Part shown: positions 26,152 through 28,213 of the stretch, one piece after another
How the letters are laid out: every line of letters starts with the position of its first letter
Numbering within the stretch: position 1 is the stretch's first letter
NCBI GenBank assembly: GCA_014925825.1
Contig: JACGCK010000006.1
Location: forward strand, 992,001 to 1,056,000
Origin: Pholiota molesta
Lineage: Eukaryota > Basidiomycota > Agaricomycetes > Agaricales > Strophariaceae
Reading direction: 5' to 3'
DNA: 64,000 bases
Made by a program: the position numbers and the translations under genes
Notes under the pieces: model-generated
Database searches by the model: none
The model's input: the letters and a program-made list of their open reading frames with translations, nothing else
What the model was told of the DNA's origin: nothing

Positions 26152-26543
26152 TTTTTTTTGCCATCTTGTCGATATTTTTTATGCATTCATTCATTATGTT
26201 TGTCAACTGTCTATAGGATTTCTTGGGATTCTTGGATGCTGAATGCTTTGCACCATACCTGATTGTTTTTATTGTATATAGTAGCACAGCACATCCACTA
26301 CGTCTTTACGTGTAGCATAGGTCACCCGTTCGTACACATTTGGAGATAAGAAGACTTGAAGAAGACTTGAACCTTCTTTTCGAGTGAGTCCGATGAATGG
26401 TGTTGGTCGGTCATTCGGACTATCAGAAGGGACTGCTTACATCAGCAGCGAAGAAAAAGGCTGCAGAAATTTTGATGGGCTCTTCACTCTGCCCAATTGC
26501 CTCTTTCCTACTAGACTCTAGGAGCCTCACCGCTTCTTGTTCA

Positions 26544-26672
26544 TGATCTTCACCCAGAACACCAGGGACGAGTACGTAGCTCTTAGTGCTCCTACTTCTA
26601 CTTGTGGTCTATGCTCACTTTTTCCTTGCAGCTACCTCAGTGACCTCGTATTCTCTCTCCTGAACCATTAGA
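26544..26672 (+). CDS. Arginine attenuator peptide uORF of CPA1
   Basis: Upstream ORF in the CPA1 leader. Exon 1 (26544-26572) and exon 2 (26633-26672) are joined across a 60-bp GTACGT...TTGCAG intron to give the 22-residue peptide MIFTQNTRDDYLSDLVFSLL then NH and TAG. DYLSD followed by exactly eight residues and a stop is the arrangement of the fungal arginine attenuator peptide (Neurospora arg-2, yeast CPA1), which stalls ribosomes at its own stop codon when arginine is high. The uORF stop lies 27 nt before the CPA1 ATG. The intron is a multiple of three and has no stop in frame, so an unspliced transcript would read a 42-residue peptide with Ser-Tyr instead of Asp-Tyr. The identification is strong; the regulatory effect of splicing is inference. 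Confidence 0.85.
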
Positions 26673-26699
26673 TCCCAAAAGCCAAGCCAACCAGCCAAT

Positions 26700-28213
26700 A
26701 TGTTTGCCCGTTATATAGCCCGTGTGCCAGCCCTCTCGCGCGGCCTCGCCACCCATGCTGGGCCCGCTATCGCGGTACCCGCCACCCTACACCTCAAGTC
26801 GGGACAGTCCTTTTACGGCAAGTCCTTTGGAGCTCCAAGGAGCATCTATGGCGAGACGGTGTTCTCCACCTCTATCACCTCATGTCAGTGTTCTTTTCCC
26901 ACCTTCACATCCATGGCGCAATATCTTACTTTTACGTTAAAATATAGACACCGAATCCATGACCGATCCTTCCTACCGCGGCCAGATTTTGGTCTTCACC
27001 AGCCCGCTCATCGGCAACTACGGTGTGCCTGCTAACGATGCCCCATTCGACTCCCAGGATGTAGGTGTCGTGCTCGAGTCTAAGGGCATCCAAGCAGCCG
27101 CGATCATCGTCGGCGATGTCGCCGAGCGCTTCTCACATTACAAGGCCGTCGAGTCCCTGGCGGCATGGTGCCAACGTCATAATATCCCAGGTATTACGGG
27201 TGTTGATACCCGCGCAATCACAACCCTTCTACGTGACCAGGGCACGACGCTCGGCCGCATTGCGGTTGGTGAGGATACAGCGCTCCCTGCGCCCGACGCG
27301 GAGGAGTACTGGGATCCTTCGAAGGAGAACCTGGTCGACCAAGTCTCGACGAAGACCCCATATGTGCTGAATGCGGGGGGCAGTATCAAGATTGCGGTAC
27401 TCGACTTTGGCGCCAAGGCAAACATCCTGCGGTCGCTCGTGCGCCGCGACGCCGAGGTCACGGTGTTCCCTTGGAACTTCGATTTCAACACTGTCAGGGA
27501 TCAATATGATGGCCTGTTCTTGACCAATGGCCCTGGTGACCCTGCACACTGCATGGATGCGGCGCTCAAGCTCAGGCGTACACTCACGGAGTGGAACAAG
27601 CCTATTTTTGGTATTTGCATGGGACACCAGATTATTGGCATGGCTGCTGGCTTGGACGCATACCGCATGACGTTTGGGAACCGAGGTCACAACCAGCCAG
27701 TGTTGGCGCTTGCTTCTGCGGGCTCCATCAAAGCTGGCCGAGTATATGTCACGAGGTATGTGCAGCCCTACCCACCCACGGCTTCTTGTGTGAGCAATTA
27801 CGAACAAGTACTGATGATAAATTTATCTTGTAGTCAAAATCACCAGTACGCGTTGAAGCTCCAGGAGCCATTCCCACAGGGTTGGGAGCCATTCTTCATC
27901 AACTGCAACGACTCATCGGTGGAGGGCATCAAGTCGACAGTGGAGTCCGGCAAGAAGGTATGGGGAGTGCAGTTCCACCCTGAGAGTGCTGGTGGGCCGC
28001 TTGATACCATTGAGGTGTGTTTAATTTTTCTCTTTCCTGGTATGCTGCGCATTGTTGCTGATCTGGTTTGTTTATGTACAGATGTTCACGGACTTCGTGT
28101 CGGAGTGCAAGGCACACAAGGCTTCCCTGGGACTCGATGTGAGTAGCGCTGCGGAGGTTTTGGCGAAGGTGCAGACGCCAGTGCAGCGCGTCGCTGTCGC
28201 TGCTGCTGCTTAA
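26700..28213 (+). CDS. CPA1: Carbamoyl-phosphate synthase, arginine-specific, small (glutaminase) chain
   Basis: Glutamine amidotransferase subunit that supplies ammonia to the large chain for carbamoyl phosphate and arginine synthesis, in mitochondria in most filamentous fungi. The N-terminus MFARYIARVPALSRGLATHA is basic and Ser/Ala-rich, consistent with a mitochondrial presequence. The small-chain N-domain follows (LHLKSGQSFYGKSFGAPRSI; after an intron, MTDPSYRGQILVFTSPLIGN and YGVPANDAPFDSQ). The class I glutaminase domain has FLTNGPGDP, the nucleophile motif GICMGHQIIG, and the His/Glu pair in GVQFHPESAGGP. The last exon reads MFTDFVSECKAHKA and ends RVAVAAAA. Four exons are in phase, all intact. 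It is preceded by an attenuator uORF, so translation is expected to fall when arginine is abundant. Confidence 0.96.

Follow-up and report, generated by a model that had tools for sequence, protein, structure and literature searches.

How is an arginine-sensing leader peptide read when the codon for its key residue is split by an intron, and which genes does such a peptide control? Both questions are raised by a short upstream open reading frame (uORF) in Pholiota molesta. It is located in the 5' leader sequence of CPA1, the small-subunit gene of the arginine-specific carbamoyl-phosphate synthase (CPSase), within the 64,000 nucleotides of DNA that we analysed (the window). Arginine attenuator (AAP) uORFs occur widely on fungal CPA1 genes. 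The core motif of the AAP is D-Y-(L/I)-S-D, and the stop codon follows eight residues past the core. To our knowledge, AAP control in the model fungi is limited to the small subunit, and the large-subunit gene has no such uORF.

An earlier note on this DNA proposed that the CPA1 leader encodes such a peptide across an in-frame, stop-free intron, and that splicing could switch arginine control on or off. Our results bear out the first proposal and speak against the second. Judging from sequence, we consider it highly probable that the locus carries a fungal AAP uORF whose Asp codon is assembled by splicing, and that its leader has been copied to CPA2, the large-subunit gene, which would place both subunits under one arginine brake.

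A leader peptide apparently completed by splicing

The uORF spans positions 26543-26671 of the window. All coordinates given earlier (26544..26672) were one base too high, and that range taken literally translates out of frame. The features of the locus are as follows.

26475..26546, forward strand: additional upstream ATG that opens a 23-residue ORF; its TGA overlaps the AAP ATG (ATGA) in both CPA1 alleles
26543..26571, forward strand: uORF exon 1, from the ATG (26543-26545) up to and including the GA of the Asp codon, MIFTQNTRD + GA; identical in all four genome copies
26572..26631, forward strand: putative uORF intron, phase 2, 60 nt, with a GTACGT donor, a branch-like CTCAC at 26614-26618 (read by eye) and a TTGCAG acceptor, signals from which splicing is predicted
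26632..26671, forward strand: uORF exon 2, C + YLSDLVFSLLNH + TAG, the stop at 26669-26671; identical in all four genome copies
26700..28213, forward strand: CPA1, small subunit of the arginine-type CPSase; three more introns and the exon boundaries read by eye

Splicing the uORF in silico gives MIFTQNTRDDYLSDLVFSLLNH, a peptide of 22 amino acids that reads DDYLSD and has eight residues from DYLSD to the stop. With the intron retained, the frame stays open for 42 amino acids, and Ser instead of Asp stands in front of Tyr. Both translations agree with what had been claimed before, namely a 22-residue peptide with a DYLSD core, a codon-splitting intron of 60 nt just before Tyr, and an open retained frame in which Asp-Tyr becomes Ser-Tyr. 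They support the reading that the CPA1 leader carries a uORF of the arginine-attenuator type in which splicing would complete the codon of the key Asp. It appears that the leader peptide can be made only once the intron has been removed. A second AG lies 9 nt into exon 2 (26632-26640, CTACCTCAG); used as an acceptor, it would delete Tyr-Leu-Ser in frame and destroy the core.

The gene downstream is recognisable by its domains, as the ORF piece at 27040-27756 matches PF00988 and PF00117 (Pfam) and TIGR01368. Its ATG lies 28 nt past the uORF stop and has an A at -3. The start context of the uORF itself, TTCTTGTTCATGA, has a T at -3, a weak context of the kind associated with AAP uORFs, and it is the same in the CPA1 and CPA2 copies. 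The additional ATG at 26475 opens another frame in the CPA2 copies, and in one of them (C196) this frame runs via the retained intron into the C-terminus of the AAP. Given this change of frame in the CPA2 copies, the 23-residue ORF probably either lies upstream of the transcription start or is irrelevant. A scan of the window against Rfam found no family at its gathering score, and a search of PDB chains with the spliced 22-mer found no match at E values up to 10.

Relatives of the peptide in protein databases

The retained 42-mer, used as query against 5.8 billion predicted proteins, returned two relatives (E values of 2.4e-3 and 3.4e-3), and two profile searches widened the set to nine distinct metagenome proteins (P0001-P0009), of which eight were kept. 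While outside the query, these proteins had E values of 1.3e-4 (P0003), 8.9e-3 (P0004), 0.1 (P0005), 0.15 (P0007), 5.9 (P0008) and 7.7 (P0009). Several relatives are thus weak by E value, and it is the residue pattern that carries their matches. P0006, with an E value of 9.7, was dropped as a chance match.

Five of the relatives (P0001, P0002, P0004, P0005 and P0007) show exon 1 (...TRDEY), then a variable stretch and then S-YLSD, which implies introns of 48, 66, 54, 51 and 54 nt, respectively. P0003, from a contig of 1191 bp, is contiguous over the junction (MLFTQNTRDDYLSDLVFSLINL) and could be the reading expected from a spliced transcript or from an intronless gene. In P0008 and P0009, both weak matches, exon 2 stands in the attenuator frame and exon 1 can be read only with a one-base shift of frame; here the implied introns, 65 and 53 nt long, are not multiples of three. 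We kept these two proteins because, immediately before the insert, M-(I/T)-Y-N-K-(F or L)-TRDEYV can be read in the +1 frame. When P0008 was shuffled, TRDEYV turned up anywhere in a shifted frame in 5 of 2000 shuffles.

The same intron position is therefore implied in seven of the eight related metagenome ORFs, some of them weak matches, and the eighth reads across the junction. YLSD is retained among the relatives. The tail from the core to the stop has eight residues in all four genome copies and in six of the eight relatives, and in these the "exactly eight residues" of the earlier note hold; they do not in P0001 and P0002, where the tail has 15 and 12. A Trp three residues after the core (Trp19 of the Neurospora peptide), which may or may not be a defining residue, has no counterpart here: the residue at this place is Phe in the window and in all eight relatives. 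Hence, the arginine response may differ here.

The earlier note had named a lack of conservation of the peptide in relatives as one result that would count against it, and had asked for intron position and length modulo three to be compared. The peptide is conserved among the eight related metagenome ORFs, and so is the intron position where it is implied; the length modulo three is not, given the implied 65 and 53 nt. In the sequences at hand, then, peptide and intron position are conserved and the "in-frame, stop-free" property is not. Exact pattern scans of viral and genome contig collections for the relatives' DNA gave no matches. Our reading of these sequences is that the uORF peptide is more than chance, because its exons recur nucleotide-identical at three other places in the genome and because the relatives keep the exon-1 and exon-2 residues around a variable stretch.

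A copy of the leader upstream of CPA2

The genome assembly comprises 65.6 Mb in 625 contigs. Two haplotypes appear to have been assembled, since loci occur as near-identical pairs: CPA1 on C555 (which holds the window) and C365, CPA2 on C619 and C196, and a CAD-like gene on C41 and C12. A whole-genome DNA search with positions 26300-26700 of the window (401 bp) hit four places, and searches with the exon-2 and the exon-1 sequence (allowing up to 3 mismatches for exon 1) each found the identical four. They are the two CPA1 alleles and the two CPA2 alleles. Positions 114-378 of the query match C619 at 89% and C196 at 87%, which defines one further feature.

26413..26677, forward strand: leader cassette of about 265 bp, consisting of promoter-side DNA, AAP uORF and intron; recurs upstream of CPA2 on C619 and C196

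The homology begins about 130 bp before the uORF ATG and ends 6 nt after the uORF stop; the sequence outside looks unrelated. On both haplotypes, the uORF stop of the cassette lies 10 nt upstream of the CPA2 ATG, which has a G at -3 and a G at +4. Just upstream of the shared cassette, we noticed by eye TGAGTC at 26385-26390 for CPA1 and GGAGTCA for CPA2, which resemble Gcn4/CPC1 half sites; the sequence around them is otherwise unrelated between the two genes.

The product of the gene behind the second leader begins MGLLRLQSLGVRGLIRPGIRSFHATR, and its first 211 residues are identical between C619 and C196. Pieces of it on C619 (L013) match PF25596 (2.7e-42), PF02787, PF02786 and TIGR01369. In a genome search, PF00988 matches only C555, C365, C41 and C12, and neither C619 nor C196. 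By these domain matches, the gene on C619 and C196 is CPA2, the large subunit of the arginine-specific CPSase, without the small-subunit part of CAD/URA2-type genes. Another large-subunit candidate, on C456, was ruled out as CPA2, as it is a frame-broken fragment; it lies outside the four places found in the cassette search. Its similarity to the large subunit shows up in tblastn pieces of 35-61% identity around 286800-287900 (L029, 281900-291800), with small-subunit-like sequence before them, seen by eye; it is presumably a decayed or misassembled CAD-like copy.

Among the open-licence papers whose titles and abstract starts were listed as matches in our literature search, none dealt with an AAP uORF of CPA2 or with an intron within an AAP uORF. 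An earlier publication of an intron in an AAP uORF is quite possible.

History of the second leader

In a four-way alignment of the copies, none of the 69 columns of the uORF exons is variable, and substitutions occur in 8 of 134 columns of the 5' part and in 8 of 60 columns of the intron. The exons differ from both other parts at p=0.0065 and from the intron at p=0.0017 (Fisher tests), values that are indicative given four related sequences and few substitutions. Within 26413-26677, the two CPA1 alleles are set apart from the two CPA2 alleles by five substitutions and three indels, none of them in exons. The distance between the genes is otherwise small: C365 (CPA1) and C619 (CPA2) differ at 4 of 119 sites in the 5' part and at 3 of 54 in the intron. 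For comparison, the two alleles just upstream of the CPA2 cassette (L013, L012) show 24 mismatches in 527 aligned columns and 91.3% identity with gaps, against 97.3% in the gene body.

The cassette copies of the two genes thus seem to be older than the divergence between the sampled alleles, yet differ little more than alleles do. Such a pattern points either to a recent capture of the leader by CPA2 or to an older duplication with conversion. The direction of copying was probably from CPA1 to CPA2, because AAP uORFs are widespread on fungal CPA1. On balance we lean towards the view that a complete attenuator leader was recently duplicated from CPA1 to CPA2, and that both subunits are now governed by a single nascent-peptide sensor of arginine.

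One could also argue that the two leaders stem from an old duplication and were kept alike by gene conversion. The non-exon divergence between CPA1 and CPA2 is indeed about as low as the allelic divergence of the flanking non-coding DNA, and the C619 intron is nearer to that of C365 (3/54) than to that of its own allele C196 (5/53 and a gap). Nevertheless, the substitutions and indels that divide the CPA1 from the CPA2 alleles mean that complete recent homogenisation has not taken place. We consider an old, converted duplication possible but rather doubtful compared with a recent capture.

Alternatively, the duplication may have concerned the promoter only, with the uORF as a passenger that exerts no arginine control of CPA2. 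The cassette does include the 130 bp or so upstream of the uORF, and these are similarly alike between the two loci. It is improbable that the uORF is just carried along, for the following reasons. First, neither CPA2 allele has any change in the uORF exons, whereas the introns between them differ at 5 of 53 sites and by a gap. Second, the GT and AG ends of the intron are intact. Third, the CPA2 start follows 10 nt downstream in a favourable context.

Retention of the intron

A further possibility, raised by the earlier note, is that splicing is regulated and that retention of the in-frame, stop-free intron, with Ser in place of Asp, switches the attenuator off; this would amount to arginine or developmental control by splicing. 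In the Neurospora AAP, D12N reportedly abolishes control. In three of the four genome copies and in five database relatives, the reading with the intron retained stays open to the end of exon 2, and the Asp codon is destroyed on retention in all four genome copies. However, the loss of Asp is a consequence of the phase. A phase-2 intron with a terminal AG, placed in a GA|C codon, yields AGC (Ser) when in frame and something different otherwise, and neither a length of 3n nor an open frame is needed for switching by retention. The five open relatives do not count as support either, because closed frames are rarely predicted as proteins and only open ORFs enter the protein database. Moreover, the window contains 48 matches to an intron-like pattern (candidate introns), of which 16 have a length of 3n, 12 are open in this phase and 5 are both. 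Being 3n and stop-free is thus roughly a one-in-ten property and unremarkable on its own.

The intron has 60 and 54 nt in the two alleles of CPA1, and in those of CPA2 its length is 54 and 53 nt. Compared with the 54-nt CPA1 allele, the 60-nt intron of the window has six extra bases in a CTACTT-type repeat and two substitutions. The 53-nt intron shifts the frame, and the retained reading stops after 37 residues without reaching the core. Given this CPA2 allele and the implied 65-nt and 53-nt introns of P0008 and P0009 (weak matches), we rejected regulated in-frame retention as a conserved device. With Asp lost at any intron length, the in-frame, stop-free layout is also unsupported as a meaningful switch, and we regard control of this kind as very improbable.

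A proposed arginine brake on both subunits

We return to the reading that we favour, in which a spliced attenuator peptide acts on both genes. The short phase-2 intron would be spliced out, and the Asp codon of the DYLSD core would thereby be assembled. At high arginine, the spliced peptide would stall the ribosome at its own stop codon; the stalled ribosome would keep scanning ribosomes from the CPA1 start, 28 nt further on, and expose the mRNA to nonsense-mediated decay. At low arginine, ribosomes would leak past the weakly placed uORF ATG to the better-placed ATG of CPA1. The start contexts of CPA1 (A at -3) and CPA2 (G at -3 and +4) fit this leaky-scanning scheme when set against the T at -3 of the uORF. 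This is also how AAP action is described in the literature, with a stall at the uORF stop, blocked scanning and decay at high arginine and leaky scanning at low arginine (PMC11550727, PMC7969011, PMC7049704).

The leader copy on CPA2 would put the same brake on the large subunit, and joint repression of both subunits by arginine is predicted. With the CPA2 start only 10 nt past the uORF stop, we estimate that a stalled ribosome would touch or cover the start, and re-initiation seems unlikely. Both halves of the enzyme are thus probably under the same arginine control by means of the copied leader. The scheme takes as its starting points the observed sequence, the splice-site-like signals, the conservation, the duplication and the identity of both genes by domain models. 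Splicing in vivo, stalling, the arginine response, leaky scanning, decay and copying from CPA1 to CPA2 are the steps that we infer.

If the scheme is correct, it would offer an example from nature of how a translational attenuator can be transferred, as a finished module, from one subunit gene of a complex to the other. The same uORF leader on both genes would provide a natural test of the portability of a nascent-peptide sensor, of subunit balance and of how uORF control spreads. There is also a practical side. The intron in the Asp codon makes the AAP motif non-contiguous in DNA, and genes of this kind would escape a search for the AAP core in unspliced genome sequence.

Comparison with known systems

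The closest known systems are the AAP uORFs of Neurospora crassa arg-2 and Saccharomyces cerevisiae CPA1, which likewise sit on the small-subunit gene of CPSase. Their peptides have a DYLSD-type core and eight residues from the core to the stop, as here. The Pholiota leader differs from them in the intron within the Asp codon and in the second full copy on the large-subunit gene; it also has Phe where the Neurospora arg-2 peptide has Trp19. A weak start context that fits leaky scanning is described for AAP uORFs (PMC7969011, PMC11550727) and is found here as well.

In Cryptococcus neoformans and C. deneoformans, the CPA1 homologue is reported to have a conserved AAP uORF that is strongly occupied by ribosomes, and its main ORF is repressed; in C. 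deneoformans its mRNA goes up 5-fold in a upf1 deletion (PMC7049704). An AAP uORF ahead of the small-subunit gene is common to Cryptococcus and Pholiota. In the Agaricomycetes, a nascent peptide of antizyme is described to stimulate frameshifting in response to polyamines (PMC4505036). It resembles the AAP in being a nascent peptide of a fungus that responds to a small molecule; the antizyme peptide acts on frameshifting and not by stalling at a uORF stop.

An AAP-type uORF on a gene other than CPA1 has a parallel in Toxoplasma gondii. The arginine transporter gene ApiAT1 is described to carry an AAP-like, arginine-responsive uORF in which a conserved Asp is critical, as seen with D19N (PMC8370653). 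Toxoplasma belongs to a distant lineage, and the resemblance is one of the peptides only. In Pholiota, in contrast, the second copy is homologous DNA within one genome.
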